Part shown: positions 8,902 to 57,963 of the stretch, in pieces
How positions within the stretch are numbered: position 1 is the stretch's first letter
Layout of the letters: each line of letters opens with the position of its first letter
NCBI RefSeq assembly: GCF_964355755.1
Contig: NC_092674.1
Location: 9,305,001 to 9,369,000, forward strand
From: Antedon mediterranea
Taxonomy: Eukaryota; Echinodermata; Crinoidea; Comatulida; Antedonidae
Direction: 5' to 3'
DNA: 64,000 bases
The notes under the pieces: model-generated
What the model saw: only the letters and a program-made list of their open reading frames with translations
Database searches by the model: none
Told to the model about the DNA's origin: nothing
Made by a program: the position numbers and the translations under genes

Positions 8902-8959
8902 GATTTCCTTAGTCCTATATAATAAAATATGTGAAAAAAATATGGTCATTACAGTGGGA

Positions 8960-12536: not shown

Positions 12537-12829
12537 TATGTCCGGTTTCTTTGAAGGAAACCGATTGGTTATTCAATAATACTTATTAGGAAATGCTTTT
12601 ACCATAATAGGTAATGTTGGGCGGGTCTTAAATATTTATGAGAGCTTAAAATAAAACAGCACTTATTTGCTAGGCGACGAAAAATCGTGGTTTCAGTTTT
12701 CAACGATAGGTGGCGCTTCAAAATCGTCAATGCGGAAGTAAGTCGATTTTACACGATTTAACGGTCAAAACGCGAAGTGGCTTTCCCACTGATTAAAATC
12801 TACGCCATGTACAGTGTTGAAAGACGACA

Positions 12830-17030: not shown

Positions 17031-17042
17031 GAGAAATGGGTC

Positions 17043-24538: not shown

Positions 24539-24651
24539 GTGCGATGGTAAAAATAATTTGGTGAAATATGAAATTCTATTTTTACTCGAGCTTCGCCTCA
24601 TAAAAATAGAATTTCATCTTTCACCACCTGAAATTATTTGTACCATCGCAC
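24539..24651. repeat. Long hairpin-forming inverted repeat, flank of B
   Basis: The ends GTGCGATGG and CCATCGCAC face each other. The arms of about 45-50 bp are imperfectly complementary around a CTCGAGCTTCGCCTCA centre. The equivalent in the C flank is 45,866-45,967, so it was present before that duplication. It looks like a small foldback element; no coding role is seen. Confidence 0.65.
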
Positions 24652-25911: not shown

Positions 25912-26005
25912 CAACAATTGTTGTTGTCGATTATCTTTTATGATAAAAATGGTGAATGAAATTAAGTAAAACCTTTGATACTCACTGCAGTCTTTCAGAC
26001 GAGAT
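25912..26005 (+). promoter_or_regulatory. Putative promoter and 5' non-coding exon of copy B
   Basis: This stretch is nearly identical between B and C. It contains the palindrome CAACAATTGTTG (25912-25923), a TATA-like GATAAAAAT (25942-25950), and a short segment CACTGCAGTCTTTCAGACG that runs into a consensus donor, GAGAT|GTAAGTAT, at 26005/26006. The coding exon opens with an acceptor at 26488, so a spliced 5' leader exon is likely. The transcription start is inferred. Confidence 0.4.
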
Positions 26006-26061
26006 GTAAGTATATGTATATGTTAGTATTAAAGAATTATATTATAATAGTATACACACAA

Positions 26062-26435: not shown

Positions 26436-26500
26436 AATCGTTATAGTTATAGTTATAGTTCCTTATTACATGTTTGTTATATTTACAGAAGAAATGGATC

Positions 26501-29500
26501 ATGACGTCAAATAATGAAATCGATAATATTGCCGTCACTGTTAATCCTTTCTATGCATTCATAACCGATCAACATAATGACATGGTCAATGAAGAATTCA
26601 AGAAAGTCAAACTCCAGTCAAAAGACAAATTGGTCAAGATTGTCTACGATAAAATAAAAACACCGCTAGATTTATTTGAGAAACTCTGCGATAATGGAAT
26701 TATCTCGGAGGACGATACTACATTTCTGGAGGAAGTATACAACCATATCCAGAACAAGATTGGCCTAGAAGAGATTGAAGAGTACAAACGTAAAAGAAAG
26801 GATCATAAAGAACGTATCAGGTTATTGTCAGTAAAAACCGATTCTTTGTTTGTTGGAAGAGACAAAGAATTGCACAAAATCTTACAGGCTTTTGCTGCGA
26901 AAACTGGAAAATGTTGTTGTGTGATTCTCGCCGGTTCGCCTGGGATTGGAAAAACAAAGTTATCTATTCAGACATGCGCAATCTACCCAGCATTTTTGAT
27001 AGAAGAAAAAGTAGTTGTTACGTAAGTATGTCATATTGCTAACTACTACCTATTTTAATTATAGTTTCTGTTTCAAGTGTTGTAGATAATTAAATTAAAG
27101 TCAAACAGTCCTTGGGAAACTTTAGTAACTGCACATATTATTTAATAATAATAAATTATTTCTTTCAAATTTATGAATAGTTACATTTTAAATACAACTG
27201 AAATAGTTTATATGAAAGCCATTATTTTTTACTACTACTTTTTTTCTACAGTACTTATCTTGTAAACCTGAAGAACGTAATGACAATGAAAGAAGTAGGA
27301 GCAGCCATCATGAATGCAATTGGTGTCAAATATATATTACCATCTACGTTTGATGTAGACGAGTTATTAGGAAAGATACGCGATATCAAATCAGGTATAC
27401 TTTAAAATGTCTTTTTTTCCATCCAACAGTAGACCCAAGGTTCAAGTTCAAAACCCGAATCTGAAGCCCTACACATGTACATTAGAAAACCTATTTGATC
27501 ACTTTAAAATGATATACTATTATACTATGTATGGTATTAAGTTACAATATTATATAATAACATTATGATTTTTTTTCAGAAACAATAATCTACTTGGATA
27601 ATGCTGATGATGTTTTACGACTAAGACAGCCTGTACGTGACGACTTCACCAAGTTTCTTTGTGATTTTATTCGCGAAGAAAATCAGAGAGTAAAATTCCT
27701 AATAACAACAAGATATAGAGTTGATAATGAGTTCTTATTGTCGGTCGACAACTTTCATCAGCTTGATATCAAACCTCTCCAGGTGTTGGATGCAATATCT
27801 CTTCTTCGTCGGTCGTCTGGGCATCCAAATCTTGATGACACGATTTGTAATGATTTGGTATTTGTTTGTGGCCATAACCCTCACGCGATTCGAGCTGTGG
27901 CCAGTCGTATGAAACAAAGGAATATGAAACCAAAAGAGTTACTGGAACTTCTAAAAAAACCGGCTCCAGCTGGAAGAGTTTTCGATCACAGGTATGACGC
28001 AAATATGTCGACTGAAGGCCAAGAGATCGAACAACAGGAGAGCGTTCTCAAATGCCTACGTGTTGTGTTTGATCAACTCGACAACAATTGCAAGTCATAC
28101 TTGATAAAGCTGTCTGTCTTTCCAAGCTTCTTTTACAGAGATGTAGCTTCTATCATTCTTGGTAAGGAGAAGAGTTTCACCAGTTTGTATCTACAAGATC
28201 TCTATATCTATGGTCTTTTGGAATTCGATAAGCTTGATCAATTTAAAAACATCGATTCTTTTGAAGGGGATCGTAACCAGTACAATGTCCATACACTGGT
28301 GCGGCTCACCTGTGAACTCGAGACACGAGAAGATGAGTCTTTAAGACCCTTTTTTGATGCTGCCATGGTAGCATTCCTCAATCATTACCATCGAGTGATC
28401 AATGAAATCTGCGAGCATGCAAACAAACATTTCAAGGAAGGTCTTGAAAAGTACCAGAGTGATAAAATAAATCTAGTACAATACCTGGAACATGAAGCAA
28501 ACAGAAAACCGACAAACGCAAAAGAATTGAACTTTTCTCAGGAGGACAGACGGTATGTTATCTTTGATGGCTTAGTCGAGGCAGATCGAAGAGTTAAATA
28601 TTTTGAGATCAAATCACTCAAAGCTAAGGAAGAAGGAGACCTGATAAGTTACAGCTTTTTATGCGCATGGGTAGGTGAACAGTACATATGTCAAGCCCTG
28701 ATATTAGAGGCACATGAAGCTGCGGACAACGGTTTGACGACACTTGATAAACTAAAATCTGGAGACAGAAGCCATGAAAATACAATGATTGCTAAGGCCG
28801 CCTGCCTATACGTGAAAGGACGAGCATACATCAGGCAGCAGAAATACGAGGAAAGTTTGATAGTTCTTCATGAATCGTTAGCTTTGCGACGAAAGCTTGA
28901 AGGAGACCATACGATGACCGCACGTGTACTCAACACAATTGGGCACGTGTTCTATCATCAGAAAAAACTTCTGGAAGCCCAGCGCTATCACCAAGAGGCA
29001 TGGCAAATGATTGACAAAATTACAGGTGGTAAACCAGAAATACATATTGATTTTTCTGTATATGTCATGAATGTGGGAACCTGTTTTAGAAGCTGGGGAA
29101 ATAGATACACGGATGCTAAGGAAAGCGAAATGGCCAAAGAACAATATGACAAAGCTTTAGATTTTTTCAATAATGCTTTAAAAATGCAGAAGAGGAGCTT
29201 TCAGGATCAAGAGACTGAATTGACAGCAAAAATTCTTAGGAATAGGGGACTTTGCTACTTTGAAATGGAAGAATATACCAAAGCTCTACTAGATGCTGAA
29301 CGAAGCTTGCGTCTTAGCCAACGGATTTTGAAAGAGAACCCTTATACAGCCAGTTGTCTGTACTTTGTTGGATGTACTCACCATCATATTGGCAAGAAGA
29401 TACTAACAGCTGCAGACGTATCGGAGGACGAAAAAGGTAAGATAAATGTGTCCGGCCTTCTAGGAGCAAGCGGGAAAAATACATAATCTTGTCAAATTTC

Positions 29501-31351
29501 AAATGAAACAAGGCCATATACATGGCTGCAGTCGATCGCGTGCTCAAGTTAGTGTTTACCGACCAACCGACCGACATAGTGAGCTGAAAATGAAAAAATG
29601 ACAGTAGTTTTAGATGACATATACAACTATTCTATTACCCATAGCACTGTGGTCAGTATTTGAGAAATTTAAGAATAGAAATGTAGGTATATACCTACAT
29701 TATTATAACCAATTTCATTTGCTATGATAATTTTTCTGCAGCGGATGCTTACAACCACTACAGTCTTAGTATGAAATTCCTTGAAGAAGCCTACAATATG
29801 GAGAATAGTCTGGGACCCGATCGACGAAGCATTGACTATGAGAAGCTCAAGGAAGAGATAATCGATGTACTCACTTCACTCGGAAAAGACGAAGACGCCA
29901 CCAATCTATGGGAACAACGATTTGCAGTATGAGTTTTTTTTTCTATCAAAAAAAAGTATTTGAAAATAAAGTACTGGGGTCATAATTATCAAACACCCTT
30001 AGAAAAAAAAATCACCTTAACTTGGTTTTAAGTCAATTATTTTGCTTAGAAATAACCTTAGCAACTACTTTCTTAAAGGAAAGGAACACCCTGGGCTAAA
30101 TGTGCCACTGTGCTTATAGATAAATGTAATAAAAACATGATTACAATGGTTCAAGGTACAATAGTAAGCAATTTAGTTAAAAAATAGACTTTTAAACGAC
30201 AACATATCGGAAATTGAACAGCGCCATTTTGACAGGTTAAGAGCAAATATGTGACGTCAGATTAGGTGGACGCATTCAAGCAAATCCAAGCGTCCATCGT
30301 CTTAGTACAGTATTTCAATATGGAAGTGCGGGATATAACCATAAATAAAATCAATTAAATAGCCTAACATACCTAATAATTCGGAATATGGCTTGGAGTT
30401 TTTATAATTCAGAAAATTTGGAACCAGAATATACAGAAAGAGAGTTAGTTTTGCGTTGTGCAGATGAGGAAAAAAGAAGAGAAGAAGAACATTCTCGAGC
30501 ATAACAAGCCGTCGAAGAATGGTGTACTTGCGGCCAGTGTATCTGTACTGTATGCCTTACTAGGCCTAGAACTCGTGTTGAACGAAAATAAAGTAGACAC
30601 TGCATCGTCAACAGCCTTCGTTTGGAAGGTTTACCAGTTAATTCCCCATCCAAATCCCGTTTGAAACAGCTAGGCAATAAAAGTAACAATAGATTAATAA
30701 TAGCTGAAAGATTTACGAATTGGCTTGCAGAAGAAAAGATCGAGCGAAGGTTTGTTTACCAAGCCAGCGCATGCTCATACCGCGTCATCGCCGTCCTGCA
30801 TGACCGCATGTCGCGTTATTAGCCAATCATATTAGCGGATTCGCTTATCCAATAGAAGCGCCGAATGCAACCGCGAATCTTAAAATTTTCGTCGGCCGTA
30901 TCTGACGTCACAAACAGGCTGCCATGAGCACAAGATGGCGATTTTCAAATGTCTTGAAAACAGCTTTAAAATCCTGTTTACTAGAAAACTACAAATCCGA
31001 TTTAAACATAAATTGTTCTGAATATTAAGTTGGTAGGGTTACTTTTATAATAGTTAGGTAAAATATTAGGTTGTTCCTTTCCTTACTTAGATGACGAAGT
31101 CTATTCCATAAAAATACCCTGAAAAGAACTGGTCTGATAAATAAAGCCGTAGTTCTTCTTCTTAAAAAAAATTGATCTGTAAAGTTGTGAAGAGAAATAG
31201 GCCAATAGTTTTTTTAAACAAAGTTAACTATAGCATTATTAACGAACCTGTGGTTTTTTTCTTGTTTGAATTAGTTGATCAGCCAGTAAAATCACGATAT
31301 CATGTTTTTTTTTTCTGAATTTAGAAAACAGACCAACAAGATACTACTTAA
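26501..31351 (+). CDS. DED / NB-ARC / TPR receptor, copy B (tail stop)
   Basis: Coding exons 26501-27021, 27252-27394, 27580-29436, 29742-29926, and 31325 to a stop at 31349-31351, giving about 909 residues. Start MTSNNEID follows an acceptor at 26488. Domains follow the order of copy A: DED-like, P-loop GSPGIGKT, Walker B IIYLDNADD, FLITTRYR, GHNPHAI, VHTLVRLTC, TPR-like helices, EEAYNMENSLG. In the last exon, codon GAA of copy A is TAA here, removing the acidic tail (about 75 residues). The frame beyond stays open to the ancestral stop at 31559-31561, so the change is recent. Intron 1 carries a 5S-SINE and intron 4 a 1-kb DNA element. The sensor part is likely still functional if the tail is dispensable. 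Confidence 0.8.
30076..31084 (+). mobile_element. 1-kb DNA transposon-like insertion in copy B intron 4
   Basis: Bounded by inverted AAGGAAAGGAACA (30076) and TGTTCCTTTCCTT (to 31084). Intron 4 of copy A runs without interruption across the matching point, so this is an insertion. A decayed frame near 30,388-30,580 reads ADEEKRREEE then EEWCTCGQC, resembling the cysteine motif of P2X7-C-terminal-like proteins often multiplied in marine invertebrates. The right half is GC-richer and holds CCAATCA, two TGACGTCA sites (30,252 and 30,903) and an AAGATGGCG, so it looks promoter-like. Non-autonomous; superfamily not assigned. Confidence 0.6.
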
Positions 31352-31561
31352 AGTTATCATACGTGTTATGAACATATCGGTGCACCAACAGAAACCACTA
31401 AAGAAAATGACGATGAACCTATGCAACCACATGGATCAACGGATAAGGAAGGTACGTCGTTGAAACGAGAGAGAACAACGAAAGAAGAAGATGCTGTAGC
31501 AGGTGGAAAGAATTACACAACTCGAAAATTTGTTAAGATGGACAAGTGCTACGTCGCCTAA
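31352..31561 (+). pseudogene. Disabled acidic-tail remnant of copy B
   Basis: The frame downstream of the 31349 stop continues without further breaks as a tail homologous to copy A (SYHTCYEHIGAPTETTKE..., ending KMDKCYVA) to TAA at 31559. It would be translated only by readthrough or if splicing avoids the stop. Confidence 0.7.
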
Positions 31562-33540
31562 AAAAGAATTCAGATTTGAGGTTAATTTAACATGAAACAT
31601 ACATAAAATAATAAAGCTATACATTTCCACAGAAAAAAGCCCGAACCAATAGGCCTATAATTACTGAAAATTGATGAAAATAAACAGTTAAACAAAAACC
31701 TGTTGTCTGACCAGGGAAGTTAAATTAGTTAATTTTAATTTTTAATAATTCGTTTAACCTCTAATAGTTAGGCCTAGTTGTATGGGAAAATGTACATAGG
31801 CCCTAACTCTTCATGATTGTTAAATTAGTTCAGTTAGTTTTATTAGACATATCTTTATAAAATGCAGCAACAATTGCTTAAAACTTTTACGGAATTATTC
31901 TCAATTTATTTACATTCCAATTGTTATTATAGTAATTGATATACTTTTAATCGAACCTTGTCTAAATGCAATATTAATTTAATATTAAGGTTCTATACCT
32001 TGCATAGGACTAAATAACTGAGGCCACCGATTAGAAGGAATACGGCCTGAGATTTTGACGGCTCAGAATTAGCTTATTTGTATATAATGCATTTAGTGGG
32101 AAATAATATTAATAGCCGCCAAATATAATTTAACATCTTGAAATCTTAAATTATTTTTAATTTTCAATAATCCATTTCTATTTAAATTATTTAAACGCTT
32201 TATATTTTTTTTTGTCTTATGTAGGATCGACCCACTTTTATTTCTTCATCAATAAAATGTTCGTTTACAATGAGTACATTGAGCACATGAGTAATGTAAT
32301 GATACAATACAATATAATTGACATCAACTAACTTTCAGTACAACTGATATCTCACTCCTACCATTGCATTTTATATATAATAGTATAAGGAAAGAAAAAA
32401 AAAATTCCTCTATGTTATACACTCTATACGCTTTATATTTGTGTACAGTAATAAATGTGCATTTTTACTATATGGACGATGTATCGATACATGTTTAGAA
32501 GGACGGGATACGATAGGATACCTGTGTGTTTAAAGAAGAAGCTGTTTTAGAGGTATATATATATTATATATTCTCTCTTCATTGGCACTTTTAAGGTTTT
32601 TTTTTAGTATGTGTGCCTTGTAAAGTTTATTAAACAAATAAATAAAAAATTAATTTAAGGGAAAATTCCTGAAAATCTTTGTTACTCTCTTATTTTGGCA
32701 AGTATTTCGCTCTGTTTCTAAGCGCCAAATGTATTATTAAGGGAAATTGGTCTATTGAATAGAGTTTTATACTTTAGGCCTGCACTATGTATAGGAGGTA
32801 TCCTGTATTTACACTTCCACAGTAGGATTACATGTTCTGTAGGTCTACAGATAAATTTTGTATGCACAAGTGTTCAATATTGTATATGTAATATCTTGTA
32901 ATATCCAATTTAAGCCCGATCTACTATTAATTACTAACTAATTAAGAAAAACAGTAAGAACTAGAAACACTATGTTCAATAGAACATAACCCCAGTCAAT
33001 GGTGTGGACAAATCATCACGAGTTAAAGTCTCAGTAGATGACTTTTTTTAAATTTTATCGCCAAACGCGAGTGTTGCCACACGAAAATTACACAGTCAAT
33101 ATCATCGTACTCGAGAATTTACTGGATTTTATATGTTTAATGACAGGGACACGACAATTGCGCGAATTACTCAGTCAATATCATCGTACTCGAGGATATA
33201 TACGATTTACGATCCTCACAGCGGTAGTTATGTGATGCAGTTTCAACCAATCACGTTCACGTATTTACATAGGCTATGTAATATAATTATTTATTTGTTA
33301 CCCTGCTTGTTCACGAAATACGGTAAATATCTACGTTCTGATTCCATATTCTGATCCGCTTGACTGAGTAAATGGGCGTAATAATACGGAATTATATCTC
33401 ATACATATTGACCAATCGGATTACAGAATTCACGTACACTAAGAGATAAAATTAAATATTACCGTATTAATTCTTTTATTTAGACTCATCAGGGAAGTTA
33501 CCAAGGCTATACATGACGTTGACAAAAATACATTATTCTA
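31562..33540 (+). other. Copy B 3' flank
   Basis: Homologous to the flank after copy A (landmark GGAATACGGCC at 32,038), interrupted by a retroposed insert at 32,208-32,427. A 30-bp phrase TCAGTCAATATCATCGTACT(CGAG) occurs twice near 33,091 and 33,172. No gene recognised. Confidence 0.5.
32208..32427 (-). mobile_element. 220-bp retroposed insert with 13-bp target duplication
   Basis: The direct repeat ACGCTTTATATTT flanks it at 32195-32207 and 32428-32440, and a T-run at the left marks a minus-strand poly(A) tail. Flanks of A and the other copies have a single AAAGCTTTATATT without the insert. It is LINE- or SINE-type retroposition by structure; the parent sequence is not recognised. Confidence 0.65.
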
Positions 33541-36500
33541 TTGTACATTGTGAATATGCTGGTATATACCTTAATACATTCTAGAAATATAATTGCGTTT
33601 CTATTATAATTAAACAGGGTTATCGAATATGATATTGATGGACTATGTAATTGTGGTAACCGACATATTCAGTTTTAGTATGTAATTGAAGACACTCTCC
33701 AAGGTACCGTAACTAGCTGTAGAAAAACGTTAAGGTAAGAATACTTAAGCCTACTATGTTGAATGCAACCTGTATATCCTCTTCGTTTAACTATATCTAT
33801 ATCTAAATCTATGCCTATTACATAGTTCCTAATCTAATTACATTTTACACACTTTTGTCCCCCTGAAAAAAATAATTCTCAACATTTTTTTGAATATGCC
33901 ATTTAACATATAGTTATCCACTTTGACAAAATTGGATCGAAACAAAATGTTTACCATGATCTCCAGCCTAATCTATCTCTTTCCTTCTCCACTGTGCGCC
34001 TCCAGGTTGTTTTGGGTCGACCCACACGACGCTTCTCTTCTGGCATCCATGGTAATGCAGTCATACAATGGCATTCAGGATTCATCCTCAGAACATGGCC
34101 TATCCACCTCCACATTTCCATTTTCATTTCTTTGCTGATTATTTTAACTTTCGTTTTAGTCATTATTTTTGCGTTAGACATAAACTTATGGCCATTTCAT
34201 TTTTAAGATTCGTCGTAAGCATTTGAATTGAAAGATATCCAATTTCTTCTTGTCTCCCTCATTGCTTTCCGTATTCTATTATTGATGTCTTCACCACTAC
34301 TAATAATGGCGCCTAGGTATGTTAATGTATTGACCTCATTTAGCTCCTGGTCGTCGATTTCAATTCTATTGTAATTCTTGCTGTTGATCCTTAATACTTC
34401 TGTTTTCTTTGTATTTATTTTAAGCCCTGTTTTTGGCAGTTGTTTTCCTCGTAATCCAGTCAACTACAATCAAGAATAAAAATCCAGACATCACATCTCC
34501 CTGCTTCACTCCTGATTTGACTTCGAACCACTCTGACTCTACTCCATCGTCCAAGACGGCACACTTTTATGATTTTATTTGGTATTCCATAGATTTCCAG
34601 GACTTTCCACAAACTTTCTCTGTGCTTTTTCAAAATCCACGGAAGTGATATATAAGGCAGACTGCCATTCTACAGCTTGTTCAACAATATTTCGTAGAAC
34701 AAATATTTGCTCCACCGTGCTTCTGCCTTTTCTGAAACCTGCTTGCTCATCTCTTATCATGTTATCCAGCCCATTGCTTATTCTGTTAATTAACACTTTA
34801 CCAAACACTTTGCTAGGAACAGAGGTAAGTGTTATGCCTCTCCAATTCCACATTCGGTAAGGTCACCCTTCCATGGTAATTTATGATGAGCGCCTGTTTT
34901 CATCTACTTCTTTTTCCCATATAATGTCTTAAATAAATCTTCAAGACATTCAATTGTTATGTTAATGTCAACTTTTAGCAATTCAGCTGTAATTTTATCT
35001 AAGCCACCAGATTTATCATTTTCCATTTTCTGAACTGCGGTTCTGGTTTCTGCTTTAGAAATATATTCAGTTGAGATTTCATCTATGGTTGGATACATAA
35101 TATTATCTGTATCATCTGCAACTGTATGTTCTGGAGTAGGCCTGTTAAAAATCTCTTCAAAGTGCTCTCGGCCACCTCTCTTTCTTCTCTGCCTCAGTTG
35201 TTATCACATTTCCGGACCTGTCCTTTACTAAATTGGTTTCTTTTTTGTCTTTTCATTGCTCAACGTCTTTGTAATCTCGTACAATTCTCTCAGCTATGGT
35301 TGCCAGGTCGCCTGCCCATTTCCTCTTATCTTTTCTCATGCTTTTCTTAACTTCTTATCTGTATCTCTGTATCTCTCTATGAGATTTTGTTTAATTCTAT
35401 CTGACTTTGCTTGTTCAATGTCTCCTTAATTTTCTTCTTTGGTCGACTATCTCCCACGAATCTTTCGTTATCCATGTTTTTTATTTCTTTTAGCCAAGTA
35501 CTTCTTTTGCAGTTTCCTTGTATGCATTTACAATGCTACTCCATTTTGTCTCCACGTCTTCTATTTCGTCGAAATCTTTTAACACTTCAAATCTGTTATT
35601 TAGTTTGATTGAAAATTGCTTTCTCGTATCTGGATGTTCAAGTTTAGTGTCAAACTTACTCCTGCTACTTCTGTGGTGGTGTTTTCTTTTCAGTTTCAGT
35701 TTGATTTTTGATGGTCACTTGCGATGTTGGCACCTTTCACAACACTCCTTATGGATGGTCTGTGTTGCCTACTAACCAGTATATGGTCTATTTGGTTGTG
35801 TGTCGTTCCTCCTGGGGATGTGCAGGTATATTTGTGTATATTTCGGTGTGAAAAGATTGTACCAGTTATCACCAAGTTGTTTAGACCGCAAAAGTCGACA
35901 AGTCTTTCTCCATTATTGTTTCTTTTTCCAATGCCGTGTTTCCCCATTATACTTCCGTATCCGTAATTTTCCATTTCCACTTTTGCATTAAAATTTCCCA
36001 TTACAATAAGTAGATCGTGTTTTGTGCATGCTGTCCGTGACCGATTGTAATTGCTCGTAAAAGTTTTCTTTCTCCTCTTTGGTTGAATCATTTGTTGGTG
36101 CATACGTTTGGATGATTGACAATTTCATGAATTTTGAGAAAACTCTTGCGTATATAATTCTGCTATTTTATTGGTTTCGAGTAGTGATTTCTCATCTCTC
36201 ATTTCTTTGACATCGTCAGTGCCACACCGTGACGATGTGTCGTCTTCTCTCCCTGAAAATAGTATGCTCTCTCCTGTGCTAAGTCGGACTTTTCCAAATA
36301 CTAGCCATCTGCATTCACTGACCCCCAGCATATTTTGAACCTATCCATTTCTTTTGCCAGTTGTGCTGATTTACCAATTGTTTACAATGTTCTGACATTC
36401 CAACACCTAACATTTGTAATTTCTTGTTTCTTCATTTTTCATGTTTTTGGGGAACAACACTTTAAATAACAATCAAGTATACGCTCTGTTGATACAAAAT

Positions 36501-36800
36501 GCATTACTACCCTTACAGCATCACGGCGCCATTAAACGCCGTAAAAGAAGAATTGGTCTTTTGAATAGAATATCATAAACTGTAGGCCTACTGCGCTCCG
36601 TAGGTTGCTAAGTTACACTCCTAAGACGTTTTATCTTGTACACTTTAAATACCAGAAAAACATTAAGAGTTTCTTACGCCTCCATAATTTCCATTTAAAT
36701 GTACCAAGTTTTACTAATTACTATCCTCCATGGTATAATTTTCGCTTAAAATAAATAAATATATATATTGTTTTACTATAAATTGTATATATATATTTTT
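33540..36800 (+). other. Orphan copy of the NLR upstream flank
   Basis: 33,540-33,856 matches the copy A flank at 14,880-15,190 (GTAACCGACATA, ACTTAAGCC...CTACTATGTTG). 36,456-36,770 continues it with matches to 15,195-15,420 (AGCAT(C/A)ACG(G/A)CGCCATTAAA, GACGTTT) and then to 16,230-16,330 (CCATGGTATA-like). No NLR exon follows. It therefore looks like a fourth duplication unit whose gene is gone, split by a nested transposon at 33,857-36,455. Confidence 0.6.
33857..36455 (-). mobile_element. Degraded endonuclease/RT non-LTR element nested in a MITE
   Basis: Read on the minus strand: an endonuclease-like region at 36331-35696 with SECRWLVFGKVRLSTGE, later DLLIVMGNFNAKVE and THNQIDHILVS; a reverse-transcriptase part at 35098-34203 with WRGITLTSVPSKVF, QAGFRKGRSTVEQI and LKINTKKTEVLRI, then TYLGAIISSG; and a C-terminal part at 34181-33951 with MWRWIGHVLRM and GRPKTTWRRTVEKE. 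These are typical of RTE-like elements of marine invertebrates. Several frameshifts separate the pieces, so it is inactive. Both outer edges (33,857-33,935 and about 36,430-36,455) match the two ends of the GTCCCCC MITE at 46,938-47,158, so it apparently inserted inside such a MITE. Confidence 0.75.
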
Positions 36801-41796: not shown

Positions 41797-42660
41797 GCAT
41801 TAAAATCGTCATTCCACATTTGGAAGTGGACTGCCACCAGGTCTCTCCATCTACTATGTTCTGTAATCTGTATTGTCCATTATTCAAAATAACATATTAT
41901 CACTTGCCCCACGAATAACATTGCTATTTATGTCGTTAAAACGTTCCCATCTACTTCACAAAATGGATGACATTGTTCACAATAATTTACTTGAAACAAG
42001 TTTGCTCAATCTATTTCTATCTACCCGGTGTGTTTTTTCATAGCAACGGAATTTATATCATTTCCATATTTACGAGATGTATTTGTTTCTTCACTATAAC
42101 GGAATTCATATCACTCGATTGCAAATTTCCTACTCTTTTCTCGTCCATCCTCTTCAAATGAACAAGCCCTCTTAGCTCAATTTATTGCGAATGGGTCATA
42201 CGTGTCTTCGGATTTCCTCATTTCTTGTTTTGTCCAATCTTGTCTTATTGACAATTGCTCTGAGGGTTCTCATTTCTGAAGCTTGTATTCTACTTCAATC
42301 CGTTGTTGTTATTGCCCATGTTTCAGTACCAGGACTTTATCAAAGATTATCTTTTTTGGTTTCTTGGGTACACGGTCTATTTTTTTAGAATGGGATACAG
42401 AGCACCTTTCCCATTCTCACTGTGATATCCAGTCTATTTCCACCTTCTCTCATGATGATGTTTCCTAGAACCATCCTGGTTGGGAAGAAAATGGAAACAT
42501 TGATCTTTTAGTTGGTACAATCGTATCAAACTTCTCAATTCTTTAACACTAATGTTGTTGTTTTTACTGTCTACTTTTAATTTATGCATAGGGAAAGTCA
42601 CGCCGTCTCCACACACATAGACTGCCCAAATCATTATGCTACCTATAATACCAAATTTAA
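41740..42660 (-). mobile_element. Decayed non-LTR retrotransposon 3' part
   Basis: On the minus strand, in shifting frames, ASEMRTLRAIVNKTRLDKTR and EEIRRHV resemble the region after the reverse transcriptase domain of RTE-like elements. Nearer the 3' end a WRDLVAVHFQMWNDD-like phrase is followed by a (GAT)n tail (41,764-41,796). Multiple frameshifts; inactive. Confidence 0.5.
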
Positions 42661-43840
42661 ACTCTTGTAATAATTCACTTTAAAACTATACCCAGTTACT
42701 TTCTTGCTTGTGTTTAAAATCTAAAGAAAAATCTAAGAAAACCGTTGCTACAGTAGTATGACTATGTTATAATAATAATAATCCTAAAGGACATCCTCTT
42801 TTTGTTGGATTTACTAATAATTTATTCTAAATTTAGGTTTGTGAATCAAGATTACTATGTAACTAATTTACATATTTTTGTTTATTTGTATTAAAAAGAT
42901 TCAATATAACTAAGTATGTTGCATCAAACAGCTCATTGTAATGGAGGGAAATATTGGAACATCTGAACAAAACAAACCTAAGTTCTTTAGAATTGTTAGT
43001 TTTAATTAAATTCACATATACTGAGTAGTATGAATGATGTTTAAGGTTTACTGTGCAATGTCATAACAAACATGGTAAGCTTCTTAATTAGTATTAGTTA
43101 TAAATTATTATAAGATTCCAACAAAAAGGAGGACGAGTAAATAAACAATTTCTTTTATAACATAATATATAGTCATACTACGTTTACTTTGATTTGTTTT
43201 TATTGTTCAACTATGATTTTAAAATATCTAACAGTATTCTGTATAGCATTTGTCATTCATTTACCGGAGTTCTTTAAAATTGTGATATAGTTTAGATCTG
43301 TAAGTATAATACTAAATATTAATAATGATCTTGGTGATGAAAGATTTAACTGTGATGTTATTCATTAAAATTAATAGAATTATCTACTTAGGACTTGGTA
43401 CAAAAAATATTCCAATACACCCAGTCGTTACCAAGTTACGCAAAGTCTTAACTTTGACCATATTGACCTTTTGGCCCCTGTACTGACCAAGCATTCCAGT
43501 TTTTTTGGCCAACAGTAAAAAAATGATTTATATTGATATAAGGAAGCAAAAAAAACCTTGTTGGCATAGTTTGCTAGAGGGTGCAGGTGAACCATTTCTG
43601 GCTCCGCAACTACTTTCTTCTTCCCTCAACCATTTCAAACACATAATCATTTTCTCCAAACTATTCCTATTTTGTAACTACTGTAGTTTATTTTATGAAA
43701 CATATATTTGTTATTCACACTGTAATTTTCACTGATTCTGTAATAAAAATAATGTTTTTTATTCTAACTATTTGATGCATAAAGCCAATGCTTTTTAATT
43801 CCAAAGTATAGCAAACAATGTAACATCATTAAATGTTTTT
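42661..43840. other. AT-rich intergenic, no feature supported
   Basis: I see only AT-rich sequence with imperfect duplicated phrases around ATCCTAAAGG/AACAAAAAGGA. It immediately precedes the DED-only gene and should hold its promoter, but no core element could be pinned. Confidence 0.35.
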
Positions 43841-43862
43841 GCAGACGAATATTGTTGGCGAA

Positions 43863-44213
43863 ATGGCAAACGATGATGAAATAATTGAGAAGTTCGATAA
43901 ATTCATCTTTGAATTCAGTAAAATTTACGAATCATATAAATTTAAATGGTTGAGATTCTGCTTATTTAACATACTGTGTTACAGTGACCTCATAGCTGCA
44001 ACTTCAGGACATCAGTTTTTAAATTCACTAGAAGATGTTGGAGTTATTCCACACGATGATGTTCATCTTTTATTAGATATCGCAAAACTGTCACGTTTAA
44101 AAAAGGCAGAAGATCTTGTAATTGATTATATTAAAACAAATGGTCAAAATAAGGCCAAACCAGTGCTGTCAAACTATCGGAAAAAGAATACGGCCAAGAT
44201 TATGACGGCTTAG
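43863..44213 (+). CDS. Single-DED protein, 116 residues, chimeric 3' end
   Basis: The exon begins after TTTTTGCAG at 43844; ATG 43863 (MANDDEII) is the first in frame. Nearly the whole protein is one DED-like fold: helical FDKFIFEFSKIYESYKFKWL, then HQFLNSLEDVGVIPHDDVH, LLLDIAKLSRLKKAEDLV and IDYIKTNG. The L-x-x-x-G-x-I-x-x-D/E-D pattern is characteristic of DEDs and recurs in exon 1 of the NLR copies. From about 44,178 the coding sequence (AKIMTA and the stop at 44211-44213) is the same DNA that is non-coding flank after copies A, B and C. A stand-alone DED can act as adaptor or FLIP-like decoy in apoptosis/NF-kB signalling; that role here is inferred. A 5' leader exon is likely upstream. 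Confidence 0.65.
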   Translation: MANDDEIIEKFDKFIFEFSKIYESYKFKWLRFCLFNILCYSDLIAATSGHQFLNSLEDVGVIPHDDVHLLLDIAKLSRLKKAEDLVIDYIKTNGQNKAKPVLSNYRKKNTAKIMTA

Positions 44214-46800
44214 AATTAACTTATTTAAAAATGTATATAATGCAATTAATGGGAAATAATATTAATAGCCGCCTATAATATAATTTAAGATCTTGAAATC
44301 TTAAATTATTTTCAATTTTTAATAATCCATTTCTATTTAAATTATTTAAAAGCTTTATATTTGTGTACAGTATTAAATTTGCATCTTTACTAGGCCTATA
44401 TGAACGATGTTTCGATACCTGTTAGACAGATGGGATACGATGGGATACCTGCTAGTTTGGGGAAGAATTTGTTTTAGAGGTGTCTGTTACCCATTGTCTT
44501 CTCCCTTCAGTGTGAATAATTTAGCTGAATTTTGTTCAAGATTACGGCTAAATTAGTTTCCCGTATCTATAATTAATTATTACTTAGGCTAGTCATTTGT
44601 GTAGTAAATGTCTTTTGGTGATGGTGTCGACGACTTCATATAATGAAACTGTTTCAATGCGTCTTATTTTCTTCTTTAAATATGTGTGTATTGCTATTTA
44701 ATGGTAAACAAATGTGTGTCTTTGCTGCTTAAACAGTTTCTATTTATTTGGTTTGGAAAGGAAAATTATCGAAATAAAAAATAAATTGTTATTTGTTGTT
44801 TTTGTAATAAGACAATTCATTGTACTATTTCATATAAAACGTATTTTTGTTTAGGGGACAATGCACAAATATCATTCATTCGTAAAACTCCATTATTAGT
44901 CCCTGTATTTGATGATTGATTATTACAACCCGGATTGAATTATGCAAGCAAAACCGATGAACCGAATGGTTTTGTTTATTGATTGGTAATGTTAATTAAA
45001 AACAAATTATATTCGTTTGTTTGGCTATTCGCGTTAACCTCATTACCAAACGCGTCATTGGTTCAGTAAACATTGGTAATGTTTAAGTGTTAAACTTAAC
45101 ACGTCATCAAATTCTGATACGTGCCACGATAGTTTCAAGCCCGTCACTATTCACTAATCCAAATTGAATTGTAATCTGTAATTTAACAGTAGGTGAGTCA
45201 ACATAATGTTTAGTTGACGCACAGAAACCTGCGTTGACGATTATTACGTTTCATTATGTTGTAGGCATAGTAAAACAATATTGAATATGTAATTGTGTTT
45301 TCTTTGTAGGCCTACTCTCGTAGTAAAAAGTAACGTAACTAGCTGCAGGAAGACTTTAAGGTAGGTTGAATTTAACCTATATCCTCTTCTATTCGCTCTA
45401 TCTATAGTCATGTAGCATAGTCTGTTAGGCCTACATCTACTGCAATTACATTTTACACATTTTCAAATAACAACGAAATTACGCTCTGTTGGTATAAAAT
45501 ACATTACCACCATTTCAGCGTCATGACGCCAAGAAATGAAACATCGTACAAAGGGGAATTGATCTATTGAATAGAGTATAGACATATATAGTGTAGGCCT
45601 AATGTGGGTAGTTAGGAAGTTCTATAATCATTAACGGACGTTTTATCCTGTACATTCACACTACCAGGAAAACATTAAAATCCATGTTTCGTGGCCTACA
45701 TGTACATACATGTGTTATGTTATCTTTCATCATAAAATCTTATGATAAACATTAAAAAAACTGTTCAATATTATTGGTCTACATTTTAATAATATCTTAT
45801 ATTAATGACAATGACAAGAATATACTTAGATTAGGTTATATAGAAAAAATAATGTTTTTATATTTGTGCGATGTTAAAAATAATATAAATTCTATTATTA
45901 ATCGGGCTTCGCCTCATGAAAATAGAATTTCATCTTTCACCTTCTGAAACTATTTGTACCATCGCACTCATTATTTGTATATAGGCCTAATAAACCAATT
46001 TAGGCAAGACCCGGTGGCTATTATTAATGACTTACTAATGAAACAAAAACAAATTGAAAATATAACATTCTTAGGATTTTATTATAATATAAATAAAATG
46101 AGAAAGTTACCTGAACTTATTCGTGCAAATAATAGTCATGTAATGGGATACAGTAGGGACTAGTGAGTTTTATATTGCAAAAGCATAAGATTACAAGAGT
46201 TATTATATTCCGTAAAAAGGAAACGAAACATCTACAAATAAATTAATAGATCTATACAGGTGCGATTTTGTATAATGAAACAAAGCAAACAGTTTTGTTT
46301 TAATTTAATTGCAGAAGTGGAAATAATTTGTTTTATTTTAATAGTGTTCCTTGTTATCAATGAATGTAGAGTATTGCGCAGTTATCTTTAGGTTTGTATT
46401 TATTTTACCGATAAAAAGAGATTTATTTAGGAAAATGTAAATAGACAAAGAAATTGTGTAACCTTATACCCCTTTCACACCAAAAGCAAAACTCCGGAGA
46501 CACTCCGGAGACACCCCGGAGACACCCCGGAGTTGACGTCCCGCTGTTTGGTGTGAAAGGGGTATTATATAAGTAGGCCTGTTATTTGTATGTTGCTTGT
46601 TGTTTGTTTAGAGACCTTACGATCATTTTTAAATTATAATTATGATTCTTAAACAATATAGTAATGTATCTGATTGTGTTCGTTTATACGCGAATTTTGC
46701 AGTAGGCGTTTCAAAAGCTGATGTTATAGATGTTTTAATTAAGTCAGCCATCAATGGACCCGTAAAAATAACTGTATCCTCAACCAGCCATACAAGTCTG
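44214..46800 (+). other. Downstream flank joined to copy C upstream flank
   Basis: 44,178-44,850 matches the flank after copy A. 44,880-46,930 matches the copy B upstream flank (23,500-26,040) at high identity apart from the MITE at 46,466-46,565. A hairpin at 45,866-45,967 is the partner of 24,539-24,651. Just after it both flanks keep a short frame containing LLMKQKQIENI.FLGF, longer in C; its origin is unknown. Confidence 0.55.
46466..46565. mobile_element. 100-bp MITE with perfect 19-bp inverted ends
   Basis: Ends are ATACCCCTTTCACACCAAA and its exact reverse complement. The interior is a short array of CCGGAGACAC-like units. The corresponding point in the copy B flank (about 25,660, AACATTATATAAG) has no insert, proving insertion after B and C separated. 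A related degraded element is near 60,307-60,420. Confidence 0.85.
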
Positions 46801-46808
46801 TGATACAG

Positions 46809-46902
46809 CAACAATTGTTGTTGTCGATTATCTTTTATGATAAAAATGGTGAATGAAATTAAGTAAAACCTTTGATACCCACTGCAGTCTTTCAGACGAG
46901 AT
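46809..46902 (+). promoter_or_regulatory. Putative promoter and 5' non-coding exon of copy C
   Basis: Same arrangement as upstream of B: palindrome CAACAATTGTTG (46809-46820), TATA-like GATAAAAAT (46839-46847), then CACTGCAGTCTTTCAGACG and a consensus donor GAGAT|GTAAGTAT at 46902/46903. The conservation over this short span supports shared regulation. Confidence 0.4.
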
Positions 46903-46937
46903 GTAAGTATATGTATATGTTAATATTAAAGATGTGT

Positions 46938-47158: not shown

Positions 47159-47242
47159 ATTTACATCTATATATTATACACACAAACCTAGTTGCTATAG
47201 TTCCTTATTACATGTTTGTTATATTTACAGCAGAAATTGATC

Positions 47243-50200
47243 ATGGCGTCAAATAATGAAATCGATAATATTGCCCTCACTGCTAATCCGTTTTATGCAT
47301 TCATAACTGATCAACATAATGGCATGGTCGATGAAGAATTCAAGAAAGTCAAACTCCAGTCAAAAGACAAGTTGGTCAGGATTGTCTACGATAAAATAAA
47401 AACACCGCTAGATTTATTTGAGAAACTCTGCGATAATGGAATTATCTCGGAGGACGATACTACATTTCTGGAGGAAGTATACCATCATATCCAGAACAAG
47501 ATTGGCCTACACGAGATTGAAGAGTACAAACGTAAAAGAAAGGAACATAAAGAACGTATCAGGTTATTGTCAGTAAAAACCGATTCATTGTTTGTTGGAA
47601 GAGACAAAGTATTGCACAAGATCTTACAGGCTTTTGCTGCGAAAACTGGAAAATGTTGTTGTGTGATTCTCGCCGGTTCGCCTGGAATTGGAAAAACAAA
47701 GTTATCGATTCAGACATGCGCAATCTACCCAGCATTTCTAATAGAAGAAAAAGTGGTTGTTACGTAAGCATGTTATAATATTGCTATTAAACTACTACGT
47801 ATTTTAATTTTAGTTTCTGTTTTAGGTGTTAGATATATAAATTATAGCCGAACCATCCTTAAGAGACTGAACACATTATTTAATAACAATTACAATTTTC
47901 TTTTCAATTTATGAATAATTAAAATTCTAAATATGACTGAAATATTTTTTTTGTCTACAGTACTTACCTTATAAACTTGAGGAACTTGATGTCAATGAAC
48001 GAAGTAGGGGCTGCTATCATGAATGCAATTGGTGTCAAAGATGTAGTACCATCTACATTTGATGTAGACGAGTTATTAGGAAAGATACGAGATATGAAAT
48101 CAGGTATATTTTACAGTAGACAGTACAGTAGACTAACGGTTAAAACCCCAAAATTTGAGGCACTACACATATCAATTTGAAATCAACCAATCACAAATGT
48201 TAATCAATTTATCAGTTCTAAATTATATACTATTATACTGTGTATGATAATAAGTTACAATATGGTATATATAACATTTGTTTTTCAGAAACAATAGTCT
48301 ACTTGGATAATGCTGATGATGTTTTGAGACCAAGACGCCCTGTACGAGAACACTTCATCAATTTTCTTGTTAAATTTATTCGTGAAGAAAATCAGAGAGT
48401 AAAATTCCTAATCACAACAAGATACAGAGTTGATAATGAGTCCTTATTGTCTGTAATCAGCTTTCATCAGCTTGATATAAAACCTCTTCAGGTGTTGGAT
48501 GCCATGTCTCTCCTTCGTCGCTCATCTGACCTTCCAAATCTTGATGAGACGATTTGTAAAGATTTGGTTTTTGTTTGTGGCCACAACCCTCACGCGATTC
48601 GAGCTGTGGCCAGCCGTATGAAACTAGGACATATGCAACCAAAAGAGTTTCTGGAACTTCTGAAAACCCCGGCTCTGGCTAAACAAGTTTTCGATCACAA
48701 GTATGGCGTAAAAATGTCTACTGAAGGCCAGGAGATCGAACAACAGGAGAGCGTTGTCAGATGCCTACGTGTTGTGTTTGATCAACTGGACAACAAGTAC
48801 AAGTCATTGTTGATAAAGCTGTCCGTCTTTCCGAGCTTCTTTTACAGAGATGTAGCTTCTATCATTCTTGGTGAGGAGAAGAGCGTCACTGGCTTGTATC
48901 TACAAGATCTCTGTATCTATGGTCTTTTGGAATTCGATAAGCTTGATCAATTTAAAAACATCGATTCTTGTGAAGGGGATTGTAATCAGTACAATGTCCA
49001 TACACTGGTGAGGCTCACCTGTGAACTTGAGACAAGAGATGATTCTTTAAGACCCTTTTTTTATACTGCCATGATAGCATTCCTCAATCATTACCATCGA
49101 GTGATCAATGACATCTGTGAACTTGCAAACAAACATTTCAAGGAAGGCCTTGAAAAGTACCAGAGTGATAAAATCAATCTAGTACAATATCTGGAACATG
49201 AAGCAAACAGAAAACCGACAAACTCTGCAAAAGAATTAAACTTTTCTCAGGAGGACAGACGGTATGTTGTCTTTGATGGCTTGGTCGAGGCAGATCGAAG
49301 CCAAATCACGCAAAGCTAAGGCAGAAGGAGACTTGATCAGTTACAGCTTTTTATGCGCATGGGTAGGTGACCAATATATATGTCAAGCCCAGATATTAGA
49401 GGCACACAAAGCCGCAGACAACGGATTGACGACACTTGATAAACTAAAATCTGGAGACAAAAGTCATGAAAATACAATGATTGCCAAAGCCGCCTGCCTG
49501 TACGTGAGAGGACGAGCCTATATCGGGCAGCAGAAATATGAGGAAAGTTTGATAGTTCTTCATGAATCGTTAGCTTTGCGACGAAAACTTGAAGGAGACC
49601 ATACGATGACCGCACGTGTACTCAACACAATTGGTCAGGTGTTCTATTGTCAGAAAAAACTTCGGGATGCCCAGCGCTATCACCAAGAGGCATGGGACAT
49701 GATTGACAAAATCACAGGCGGTAAACCAGAAGTACATATTGATTTTTCTGTGTATGTCATGAATGTGGGAACCTGTTTTAGAAGCTGGGGAAATAGATAC
49801 ACTGATGCTAAGGAAACAGAAAAGGCCAAGGAGCAATATGAAAAAGCTTTAGATTTTTTCAATAATGCTTTAAAAATGCAGCAGAGGAGCTTTCCTGGTC
49901 TAGAGATTAAACTGACGTCAAAGATTCTTAGGAATAGAGCACTTTGCTACTTTGAAATGGAAGAATACACCAAAGCTCTACCAGATGCTGAACGAAGCTT
50001 GCGCATTAGCCAACGGATTTTGAAAGAGAACCCTGACACAGCTAGATGTCTGTACTTTGTTGGATGTACTCACCATCATATTGGTAAGAAAATACTAACA
50101 GCTGAAGACGTATCGGAGGACGAAAAAGGTAAGATAAATGTGTCCGGCCTTCTAGGAGCAAGCGGGAAAAATACATAATCTTGTCAAATTTCAAATGAAA

Positions 50201-51624: not shown

Positions 51625-52075
51625 AAGAGAAAGGCTTGCATATTTTAAACATATACCAAAAGCAACTTCGCAAAATTATAGGTATCAGGTTCCCAGACAG
51701 GATATCAAACATAAATGTGTATACAGAAGAACAGGAACAAAAACCAATTTCGTTCGTAGTCGACGCAAGATGGAGACTATTCGGTCACATACTCAGACAA
51801 GACCCATGTACACCAGCCAACACAGCAATAAACTATTATTTCAGCCACACTACCAATATAAAATTTCGAGGAAGACCGAGAACCACACTACCAATTGATG
51901 GCAACGACCTACTCACCCTTAATAAGCAGAATACAAACATCAAGTATCCCGGACAATTGAAAACCAAGAAAGACATCAAACAACTAGCCAATGAAAGATT
52001 CGATTGGAAGAAACTGGTAAAAGAGATATACGGAGCAGGCCAAGCGGAAATGTCGGCAGTAATCATCATCATCAT
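51625..52075 (+). mobile_element. 5'-truncated non-LTR insert in copy C 3' UTR
   Basis: The frame encodes QLRKIIGIRFPDRISNINVY, ARWRLFGHILRQDP, KFRGRPRTTLP and a final FDWKKLVKEIYGAGQAEM, the usual C-terminal run of echinoderm and cnidarian RT elements. An ATC-repeat tail is at 52,058-52,073. In copies A and B the 3' UTR runs without it (TTTAAC... directly to CACAGAAAAAA...). It inserted after duplication. Confidence 0.7.
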
Positions 52076-52115
52076 ACCAAAAATTCACAGAAAGCAAACC
52101 GAACCAAAATATTGA

Positions 52116-54780
52116 TTGAAAAATGATGAAAATAAACTATGAATTAAATTTAAACCAAAACCCGTTGTCTGACCATGGAAGTTAATTTAAATTACGTTTT
52201 AAAATAATTGTTTTAACCTCTATTTGTATGGAAAATGTACCTGTGCCCTAAATCTTCATGATTATTAAATTAGTTTAGTTACTGTAGTTTGTTTTGACAT
52301 ATTTTTTATCAAATTTCATGGCAACAACAAATTCTTAGAACTTTTACGGAATTATTCCAAATGTATTAAATTGTTATAGTCATTGATACACTGTATTTTT
52401 TTTATCGAACATTGTATAAATGCAATATTAATTCAAGGTTATACATTGCATAGGCCTAGATAACTGAGGCCACCGATTAGAAGGAATACGGCCAAGATTT
52501 TGACGGCTTAAAACTAGCTTATTATAAATGTATATAATGCCATTAGTGGGAAATAATATTAATAGCCGCCAAATATAATTTAACATCTTGAAATCTTAAA
52601 TTCTTTTGAATTTCCCATAATCAGTTTAAGTTTCTATTTAAGTATTTAAAAGCTTTATATTTGTGTAGGCCTACAGCATTAAAAGTGCATTTCTATAAAG
52701 GTGTGATGCGACAGAGTACCTACTAATGGAGTGGGGGATAGAGGAGAGTTTAGAGAAGGTGGTGGTTAGGTTTAGTAGAGGTGTCTGTTAACCTGTTAGC
52801 TTCTCCCTTCATTTGCACTTTTTCTAATATGTGTGCCTTTTAAAGTTTAAAAAGGTAAAAAACGCGCCATTTGAATGACCGAAATTCCTGTGATACAGGA
52901 CATATATTTTGGCCCCCCGGTTTACTTCTATTAATTTGTCAAATGTATTGCTATAAGATTACGGCAATATTAGTTTCAAAAGTAGTCACTTGGTAGGCCT
53001 ACATAATAACATAGATAAAAAGTAAAAGAATCAATTAATTTAGTTCCAACATGGAGCTACATGTTTATGGTTTTGTTTTGTGATCTTAGAAAACTTATGA
53101 ATTTCAGCAAGTATTTTTAGGCACTGACATTTCATTCAGTATAAAACGTTTCTTCTCCATGTTCTCATATAAAATAATACTAAATATAAGTGATGAATGA
53201 TAATGAATTTAACATTTATATAATGCAACAATTTCTATTTTAAATCTCTTGTCTTGTTAGTGGTGTTTGTGATTTCATAAAATGAAACTGTTCCAATTTG
53301 TCTTATTTTCTTCTTTCAATATATTATGTATGTTACTTTAAATGCTAAATAAATGTGTAGTGTGTGCAGCTTAAACAGTTGTTTATTTGGTTTGGAACGG
53401 AAAATTATTAAAATAAAAAGGTTCATCGAAATTATAAATTGTTCGATTTCACCGTAAACAACATACGGCAGCAGATCGTGCATACCGTAGCCTAAATCTT
53501 CTAATTGTAACCCTGGGTTTTTATTCTTTGATTGTTTTTTAAGGTGGGTTACTATTAGAAGGGGGGTTACTATTAGAAGGGGGTTACTATTAGAGTGTGG
53601 GTTAGAAGATTTACGGTACTAGGAGGGGAGTGGCGATTTGACGAATATCGTATGGAGCTAGTTCCCTTTCTTCCCATCTGTCATTATTGTAAAAACCATC
53701 CGTAGAATTAAGCCTCATAAGTACTTTTATGACGGACAATAAAATAAAGGGTAACAAATAAATCTTTTAAATTGATGATTTTACAGACGTGTTTCTCGCA
53801 AATTGGTCACATACTACACCCACAGTATTATGATTTTAAAAGTGGATCACATACATACATACTTTACTTTATATAGCAGAAAGATTCCAAAGGAAATGAA
53901 TTTGGTTTCAATATTGTTTGGAACAATATTTATTTGCATTTTTGTTCCATTAAAACAATTTAACAAAAGAAATAAATCAATTGAGGGCAATCAAAACAAA
54001 TATTTATAAATTAAAAATAACAAATAATATGAAACCAAACCTTACATAAATGGATCAGTCAAGTCTATTTGGAATATGTAGTCCTACAAAGTTCCTAAAA
54101 AATAAGCAAATTAATAATTTTAAAGATGAACCTGGCGTTTTTTTAGTACCTATTTAGTCAATTGAAAATTTGTTTAAAACAAAATAAGACTTTTTAAAAA
54201 TGTTTTGAATGACTCTTGTTACAAAAGTGAACACACCTTTTTCCTTTGGATGAGTAATAGCTACCGGTATGAATGATGTATATGCTGGATTGCTGTCGGC
54301 TGCCCTCTATGTTCAACAACTTTAAAGTTAGTCCATGTCCGAAAGTTTAGTAACATCTGCAAGTTAATTTTAAAAACAGTATTATTATAATAAAAAATGG
54401 TATTTCTAGACTAAAAACACAATCAAGTATTATCTAGTACAGAAATATATATTCAAAAAATGGCAGGACAGACATTGAAAACTGTATAATTTCCAGAGTT
54501 TGCCTTTGAATAATTAAAATTTAACATTAACTACAAAAAGTTACTTTCCTACCAGTTTGTAAGTAAAGACTCCAAATGTATTTTTTCTGGTATTTAAGAT
54601 GATCAATAACAGGTTACACTTTCCAGAAAATTTCCTTTTCAGAAGTAAACTAATTTGTATATTTTGACAGCGTGTATTGTATGTAGGCATATTGGAGACG
54701 GACACTGGTATTCCCCAGAAGACCTTGCTGAAGCAATGGCAGACAAAAGCTTATGGAAAACCTAGTCGGTTATTTTCTGG
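52116..54780. other. Copy C 3' flank and gene-free sequence
   Basis: 52,440-53,400 matches the flanks after A and B (GGAATACGGCC landmark at 52,486). Around 53,541-53,612 a 19-20-bp unit GGGTTACTATTAGAAGGGG is repeated about three times. Beyond 53,700 no homology to the other units and no gene were seen. Confidence 0.45.
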
Positions 54781-54786
54781 ACTAAG

Positions 54787-55136
54787 CAAGTCTTGTGTAT
54801 AGTGGCACTGTGGCTTGGTGGACGACGTGCTTGCAAGTCTTGTGTATTATAGTGGCACTGTGGCTTGGTGGACGACGTGCTTGCAAGTCTTGTGTATTAT
54901 AGTGGCACTGTGGCTTGGTGGACGACGTGCTTGCAAGTCTTGTGTATTATAATGGCACTGTGGCTTGGTGGACGACGTGCTTGCAAGTCTTGTGTATTAT
55001 AGTGGCACTGTGGCTTGGTGGACGACGTGCTTGCAAGTCTTGTGTATTATAGTGGCACTGTGGCTTGGTGGACGACGTGCTTGCAAGTCTTGTGTATTAT
55101 AGTGGCACTGTGGCTTGGTGGACGACGTGCTTGCAT
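54787..55136. repeat. 50-bp tandem array, seven units
   Basis: Units start AGTGGCACTGTGGCTTGGTG at 54801, 54851, 54901, 54951 (AATGG variant), 55001, 55051 and 55101. They are nearly identical, so recently amplified and probably length-variable. Each contains GTGGACGACGTGC. Confidence 0.9.
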
Positions 55137-56275: not shown

Positions 56276-56469
56276 AATAAGGACAAATGCAATTTCATAC
56301 GATGTGTTCAAGTACACCCGCCTCCATGACCACCTGTAAAATGAGCATTTATTAGCATATGAAATGGCTATATCTGCATATCAGATGAAATACAATAAAC
56401 ATACGAGATATGATAATCTGCATAATATGTAATATGAAAATTTGCAAGATATCATAATTTACTTAAAGA

Positions 56470-57345
56470 TATGATCATCTGTAATTAAATATAATATGGA
56501 CATCTGCATATGAGATGTCTCACTATACATAGATACATGATCATCTGTATATGTAATATGGACATTTGTATGAGATGTCTCACTATACACATGAGACTTG
56601 ATCATCTGTATATGTAATATGAACATCTGCATGAGATGTCTCGCTATACATATGAGACATGATCATCTGTATATGTAATATGAACATCTGCATGAGATGT
56701 CTCACCATACATATGAGACATGATCATCTGTATATGTAATATGAACATCTGCATGAGATGTCTCACTATACATATGAGACTTGATCATCCGTATATGTAA
56801 TATGAACATCTGCATGAGATGTCTCACCATACATATGAGACATGATCATCTGTATATGTAATATGAACATCTGCATGAGATGTCTCGCTATACATATGAG
56901 ACATGATCATCTGTATATGTAATATGAACATCTGCATGAGATGTCTCACCATACATATGAGACATGATCATCTGTATATGTAATATGAACATCTGCATGA
57001 GATGTCTCACTATACATATGAGACATGATCATCTGTATATGTAATATGAACACCTGCATGAGATGTCTCACTATACATATGAGACATGATCATCTGTATA
57101 TGTAATATGAACATCTGCATGAGATGTCTCACCATACATATGAGACATGATCATCTGTATATGTAATATGAACATCTGCATGAGATGTCTCACTATACAT
57201 ATGAGACTTGATCATCTGTATATGTAATATGAACATCTGCATGAGATGTCTCACTATACATATGAGACATGATCATCTGTATATGTAAAATGATCATCTG
57301 CATATGAGATATAAATATACATAAGAGACATGATCATCTGTATGT
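56470..57345. repeat. 61-bp tandem array, about 13-14 units
   Basis: The unit contains CATATGAGACATGATCATCT, GTATATGTAATATGAACATC and TGCATGAGATGTCTCACTAT. Starts at 56649, 56710 and 56771 give a period of 61 bp. Units differ by single substitutions (C/T, A/T). Outer units at both ends are degraded, and similar CATATGAGAT motifs extend to 56,340 on the left. Confidence 0.9.
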
Positions 57346-57540
57346 AACAGATTGAGATCAAATAACATGTATAAGTATATCACTTTAAAACGTCATTAGC
57401 ATATGATCACCTGTATACTCTATAATATATTCAAAATCATTGTTGCAAATATCTTTCTTCTACATACAAAAAGAAATATGATTATGTACATTTTTTGAAA
57501 TACAGTTATTTGCATACAAGTGCCAGTCATAGTATACAGT

Positions 57541-57963
57541 AGAAAATCGCTATTTAGGAGACATCATTTTAAGGTGACACTTTTCCAGTGTGTTATATTT
57601 TAACACTACAGCCAACCCCTATTTAGGGGCCACTTTTCCAGTGTGTTATATTTTAACACTACAGCCATCCCCTATTTAGGGGCCACTTTTCCAGTGTGTT
57701 ATATTTTAACACTACAGCCAACCCCTATTTAGGGGCCACTTTTCCAGTGTGTTATATTTTAACACTACAGCCAACCCCTATTTAGGGGCCACTTTTCCAG
57801 TGTGTTATATTTTAACACTACAGCCAACCCCTATTTAGGGGCCACTTTTCCAGTGTGTTATATTTTAACACTACAGCCAACCCCTATTTAGGGGCCACTT
57901 TTCCAGTGTGTTATATTTTAACACTACAGCCATCCCCTATTTAGGGGCCACTTTTTGGCCCGG
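57541..57963. repeat. 53-bp tandem array with two hairpins per unit
   Basis: Units begin TAACACTACAGCCA at 57601, 57654, 57707, 57760, 57813, 57866 and 57919. Each unit holds CCCCTA-TT-TAGGGG and GTGTTA-TATTT-TAACAC, both able to fold as hairpins. Near-identity suggests recent expansion. Confidence 0.9.

Follow-up and report, generated by a model that had tools for sequence, protein, structure and literature searches.

We found that an open reading frame of 116 codons in an array of immune-receptor genes is, judged from its sequence, the first half of a caspase-8-like double-DED protein, which was broken by DNA rearrangement. This frame, designated as ORF F, lies at positions 43863-44213 on the plus strand of the 64-kb window, that is, the whole stretch of DNA that was analysed. 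We consider it probable (about 0.8) that ORF F goes back to a tandem-DED gene, of which it represents the 5' coding exon, and that a rearrangement within a tandem array of receptors composed of a DED, a STAND-type ATPase, and TPRs cut this exon between its first and second death effector domains (DED1 and DED2). The original prediction, a DED-only gene with an open frame, agrees with the frame found here.

Exon F (43845-44213, plus strand) comprises a leader and the entire ORF F, and is preceded by a splice acceptor AG at 43843-43844; the ORF starts 18 bases 3' of this acceptor. The acceptor 'gcag' and the leader 'ac...gaaATG' are common to exon F and its paralogues L012 and L015, and those of L017 are similar. 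As the paralogues have a similar acceptor and leader up to 'gaaATG', exon F is the coding-opening exon of its family, located behind a presumed untranslated 5' exon. A strong donor pattern (GT[AG]AG) was absent 3' of the ATG; thus, exon F reads as a terminal exon. The encoded protein ends with ...NYRKKNTAKIMTA, followed by the stop codon. Of the positions that at least 90% of family members have conserved, F retains most, K15 being among the exceptions.

The AF2 model of F (pLDDT 79, pTM 0.69) has the six-helix fold of the Death effector domain superfamily, as originally predicted. Its best match in VIA-align was the DED of FADD (Z 12.7, rmsd 1.3, 84 residues), the leading rows of the structure comparison were DED proteins, and the modelled fold is near the DEDs of FADD, PEA-15, and caspase-8. 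PEA-15, the top row in Foldseek, resembles F in being a small DED protein with a short tail, but the identity is only 14% and the tails differ. Pfam PF01335 gave no match in F itself, and its matches in the relatives L012 (2.5e-5) and L013 (7.9e-6) were both beneath the curated cut-off.

The genome contains at least 150 relatives of F. The six closest are 50-60% identical to F and are located on other chromosomes (C2 and C10); no parent closer than about 60% was present among the matches listed. The similarity between F and its close paralogues stops at residue 108, and the exon of the paralogues continues for about 70 residues past that point. When the whole L012 exon was modelled by AF2, a tandem DED was obtained (pLDDT 92.9), which aligned with that of caspase-8 over 159 residues at a Z score of 16.0. 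A TRADD-like_N-type exon follows the tandem-DED exon in two of the three parent loci examined, and in the third the next exon is recognised by visibly related sequence. Pfam was run on part of the parent-locus exons, including the next exons of L016 and L012: the L016 exon matched TRADD-like_N with 24.7 bits (cut-off 23.7), and the L012 exon had no Pfam match of its own and is visibly related to the TRADD-like_N-type exon. Inspection of the three parent loci by eye, and by Pfam for some of their exons, revealed no caspase-like domain. Some members of the family carry stops. The sequences and the caspase-8/FLIP-like model suggest that the donor of F was DED1 of a tandem-DED exon from this very large family, which is distinct from the array receptors. 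F shares with the tandem-DED and TRADD-like_N expansion a homologous DED1 exon with the 5' leader and the acceptor; a second DED and a TRADD-like exon are absent from the 64-kb window, and no DED2 match near C5:9.3 Mb was found among the best 150 scored. A search among the 150 scored relatives also gave no un-fused gene with the C-terminus of F, a finding in keeping with the fusion that was originally proposed. The donor gene itself may have been F's own locus.

The junction between the two parts of ORF F is sharp. Codons 1-107 (43863-44183, plus strand), which encode DED1 and the start of the inter-DED helix, have 55-60% amino acid identity to L012 and L013. The following segment (44184-44213, plus strand), which encodes the new C-terminus (K)NTAKIMTA and the stop codon, is read from the 3' flank of a receptor unit. 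Between F and the parent L012, 11 of 12 bases are identical at 44174-44185 and only 5 of 30 at 44186-44215. The comparison with the flanks of receptor copies A and C gives the mirror image: from 44183 on, 9 of 10 and then 26 of 30 bases are identical, whereas just upstream the counts are 6 or 5 of 30. Because the identity switches sharply on both sides, codons 1-107 are old, and codons 108-116 and the stop codon are derived from the flank. The block identities place the breakpoint at 44183-44186 on the plus strand, with about 3 bp attributable to either side; the breakpoint had been predicted near 44,178, and the alignment with the flank moves it slightly further right.

The captured flank (44183-44780, plus strand) is 87% and 84% identical to the DNA beyond copy A at 21976-22347 and 22484-22721, respectively, the former corresponding to 44183-44557 of F. 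Its identity is 88% to copy B (32035-32207) and 83% to copy C (52481-52690); a further homologous segment of the copy B flank lies at 32430-32556. The claim that the last codons and the stop of F are DNA common to the 3' flanks of A, B, and C is therefore upheld. When a 641-bp flank query was compared with the 354-Mb genome, close copies were found only within the array, in addition to two weak 84-bp matches on C1; thus, the flank is not a dispersed repeat. Nor is it a hidden coding exon, because the frame of the F tail is broken by an early TAG in the copy A flank and by a frameshift in the copy B flank. The stop and last codons of F have indeed been taken from non-coding DNA at the edge of a receptor unit. 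In copy A, the flank begins about 517 bp beyond the stop codon in the presumed last coding exon (~21208-21458), and it is thus likely 3' UTR or terminator DNA. AATAAA is present at 44773 and 44780, 560 bp past the stop of ORF F. The common flank also contains a near-perfect palindrome, AATTTAAGATCTTGAAATCTTAAATT, at 44283-44308, with one mismatch in A, B, and C; weak relatives of the surrounding ~80 bp are found at C1:23.07 and 23.15 Mb. In the first 200 bp of the flank (44187-44384), F and A differ by 5.7%, compared with 11.3% over the longer flank, which could reflect conversion or constraint.

Around F, the array consists of copy A (16986-21458, plus strand; its ends are placed in part by splice signals), copy B, a receptor of the same type (26459-31559, plus strand), copy C directly downstream of F (47201-50178, plus strand), and the more diverged copy D on the opposite strand (4748-8979, minus strand). 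Copy A contains exon 1 (16986-17564), a TPR exon extending to ~20073, an exon at ~20382-20583, and the last coding exon mentioned above. In copy C, the TPR exon (48222-50178) is divided over two frames that overlap near 49258-49298, which suggests either a pseudogene or a recent frameshift in this copy. A 162-codon frame close to its last coding exon (51627-52112), whose sole Pfam match was a sub-threshold bacterial domain, reads like a retroelement fragment.

The receptor DED exon with the P-loop exists in only four copies genome-wide, namely A-D, and F, which has no similarity to the copy A exon, is not a fifth. BLASTP between F and the copy A DED exon found just 8 identical residues out of 18, and a profile comparison with the receptor DED gave 44% probability over 28 columns. 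An array receptor is thus ruled out as the donor. The predicted fusion of a DED exon at the array holds, but the exon is DED1 of another, very large tandem-DED family.

The stretch that runs from the copy A 3' flank to copy B and the one that runs from F to copy C are colinear; in particular, the copy C 5' flank (44874-46932, plus strand) is colinear with the copy B 5' flank (23497-26035). F thus occupies a position in which a receptor would be expected. At 36457-36666 (plus strand), 7.2 kb upstream of F, there is a relic of the 5' flank of a receptor unit, with 72% identity to 45457-45678 of C and 15237-15402 of A. When this relic was used as a genome-wide query, the only other listed match besides a short dispersed stretch (approximately query 18-71) was that of A; local BLAST showed C and B as well. 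The spacing from the 5' relic to the 3' flank is 7.7 kb around F, versus 7.0 kb between the same marks around copy C, and no receptor exon is left between the two relics. From the sequence, F appears to occupy the site of a lost receptor unit (X), bracketed by both of its flank relics. A dispersed, transposon-like repeat with dozens of copies, parts of it in both orientations, occupies 42471-43613 (plus strand) and ends about 230 bp before exon F. A degraded LINE-like element on the minus strand (33954-36124), with matches to reverse transcriptase and endonuclease, lies between the copy B flank and the relic of X, and another reverse-transcriptase-type ORF is found at 12821-13525 (plus strand).

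The following order of events can be inferred. A tandem-DED gene, with the TRADD-like_N-type exon next to it as in two of the three parent loci, would have resided within the receptor array. A rearrangement would have cut its exon between DED1 and DED2 and joined it to the 3' region of unit X, which has lost its coding exons but retains the 5' flank relic at 36457-36666. The frame would then have run by chance for nine codons into the non-coding DNA of X until the first in-frame TAG. The cheapest event would be one deletion from within the tandem-DED exon to the 3' region of X, since the removal of DED2, the next exon, and the body of X could account for both the junction and the losses; alternatively, a duplication edge landing in the exon would have produced the same junction. 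On the other hand, the two flank relics could stem from two separate lost units. At 72%, the 5' relic seems to be the older of the two, the 3' flank being 87-94% identical to A, but flank identity differs a great deal across the array. We rejected a model in which a duplicated segment inserted into an intact tandem-DED gene and the second half of the gene survived to the right, because the window contains no DED2 or TRADD-like exon after 44186; the nearby part of C5 has no DED2 match either among the best 150 scored.

Whether the product of this cut between DED1 and DED2 has a function is a separate matter, and we slightly favour a relic over a young decoy gene. At somewhat better than even odds, F is a non-functional fragment that is open for want of time and yields either no protein at all or an unstable product whose DED1-DED2 interface is exposed. 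Both DED2 and the exon after it have been lost, a repeat ends shortly upstream of the exon, the adjacent copy C is frameshifted, and stops occur in other family members. The F-A flank difference of 5.7-11.3% corresponds to about 0.03-0.06 substitutions per site on the F side since the split, and in neutral simulations of a 107-codon frame, the frame stayed open in 5% (0.065 substitutions per site) to 22% (0.03 substitutions per site) of runs. The omega of the F branch, most of which predates the fusion, was 0.50, compared with a background of 0.38; it differed significantly neither from the background (LRT 0.31) nor from 1 (LRT 1.90). Decay sits less easily with the retention of the open frame, the start codon, the acceptor, and most of the highly conserved family positions. 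The intact modelled fold near known DEDs, the conserved acceptor and leader, the AATAAA signals past the stop, and the terminal character of the exon leave a smaller but appreciable chance that F is a young DED-only gene, which would use the old promoter and the captured 3' region for polyadenylation, and whose lone DED1 would cap or poison tandem-DED assemblies. The pyrin-only and CARD-only proteins (POPs and COPs; PMC3775265) offer a precedent by analogy. However, neither test is strong; the omega value rejects neither equality with the background nor neutrality, and open frames survive in 5-22% of the neutral runs.

The original prediction had proposed that F could serve the adjoining DED-bearing receptors as an adaptor or decoy. 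The two are physically close and both are DEDs, which lends the proposal weak support; however, since the sequences of F and the receptor DED have next to nothing in common and F comes from a different DED family, in which there are at least 150 other potential partners, we consider this role improbable. Instead of the adjoining receptors, the tandem-DED family is the obvious partner, and F, if made, would more plausibly interfere with its own family. If F is expressed, the most likely action, by analogy with CARD-only and pyrin-only proteins, would be that the lone DED1 caps or poisons the DED assemblies of that family. The full proposal, in which F is an expressed DED-only protein that captured its C-terminus and polyadenylation region from a receptor unit and restrains the tandem-DED family, as an invertebrate parallel to the primate CARD-only and pyrin-only proteins, is rather unlikely in our estimation.

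CARD-only and pyrin-only proteins are single death-fold domains that duplication or rearrangement has detached from a larger gene (PMC3775265). F is likewise a lone death-fold domain separated from a larger gene, but it is a DED rather than a CARD or PYD, and is known here from sequence and a model. Among tandem-DED proteins, such as c-FLIP and the caspase-8 prodomain, the likeness lies in the modelled DED of F and in the tandem DED of the parent exon, whereas F has DED1 only. Large animal expansions of proteins with a DED plus TRADD-N are described by Kaur et al. (2021, PMC8195603). The present family is similar in its large expansion in one animal genome and in that a TRADD-like_N-type exon comes after the DED in two of the three parent loci, but differs in having a tandem DED, whereas those described there have a DED plus TRADD-N, and F is without the TRADD-like portion. 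If expressed, F would be a base-by-base case of an immune-gene array making a single-domain regulator, in which a single break provided the shortened death-fold domain and its stop codon, and perhaps a poly(A) site as well. As a relic, F would belong to the ordinary debris of a rapidly changing immune locus, yet it marks one rearrangement of the array.

Toward the right edge of the window, an 805-codon open frame on the minus strand (61586-64000) runs beyond the edge; it had no Pfam match and a weak PDB match to a splicing protein (E 0.0055, 51 residues). A 61-bp tandem repeat with 13 register-shifted matches is present at 56410-57441, and other tandem arrays are located at 54786-55135 and 57569-57955.
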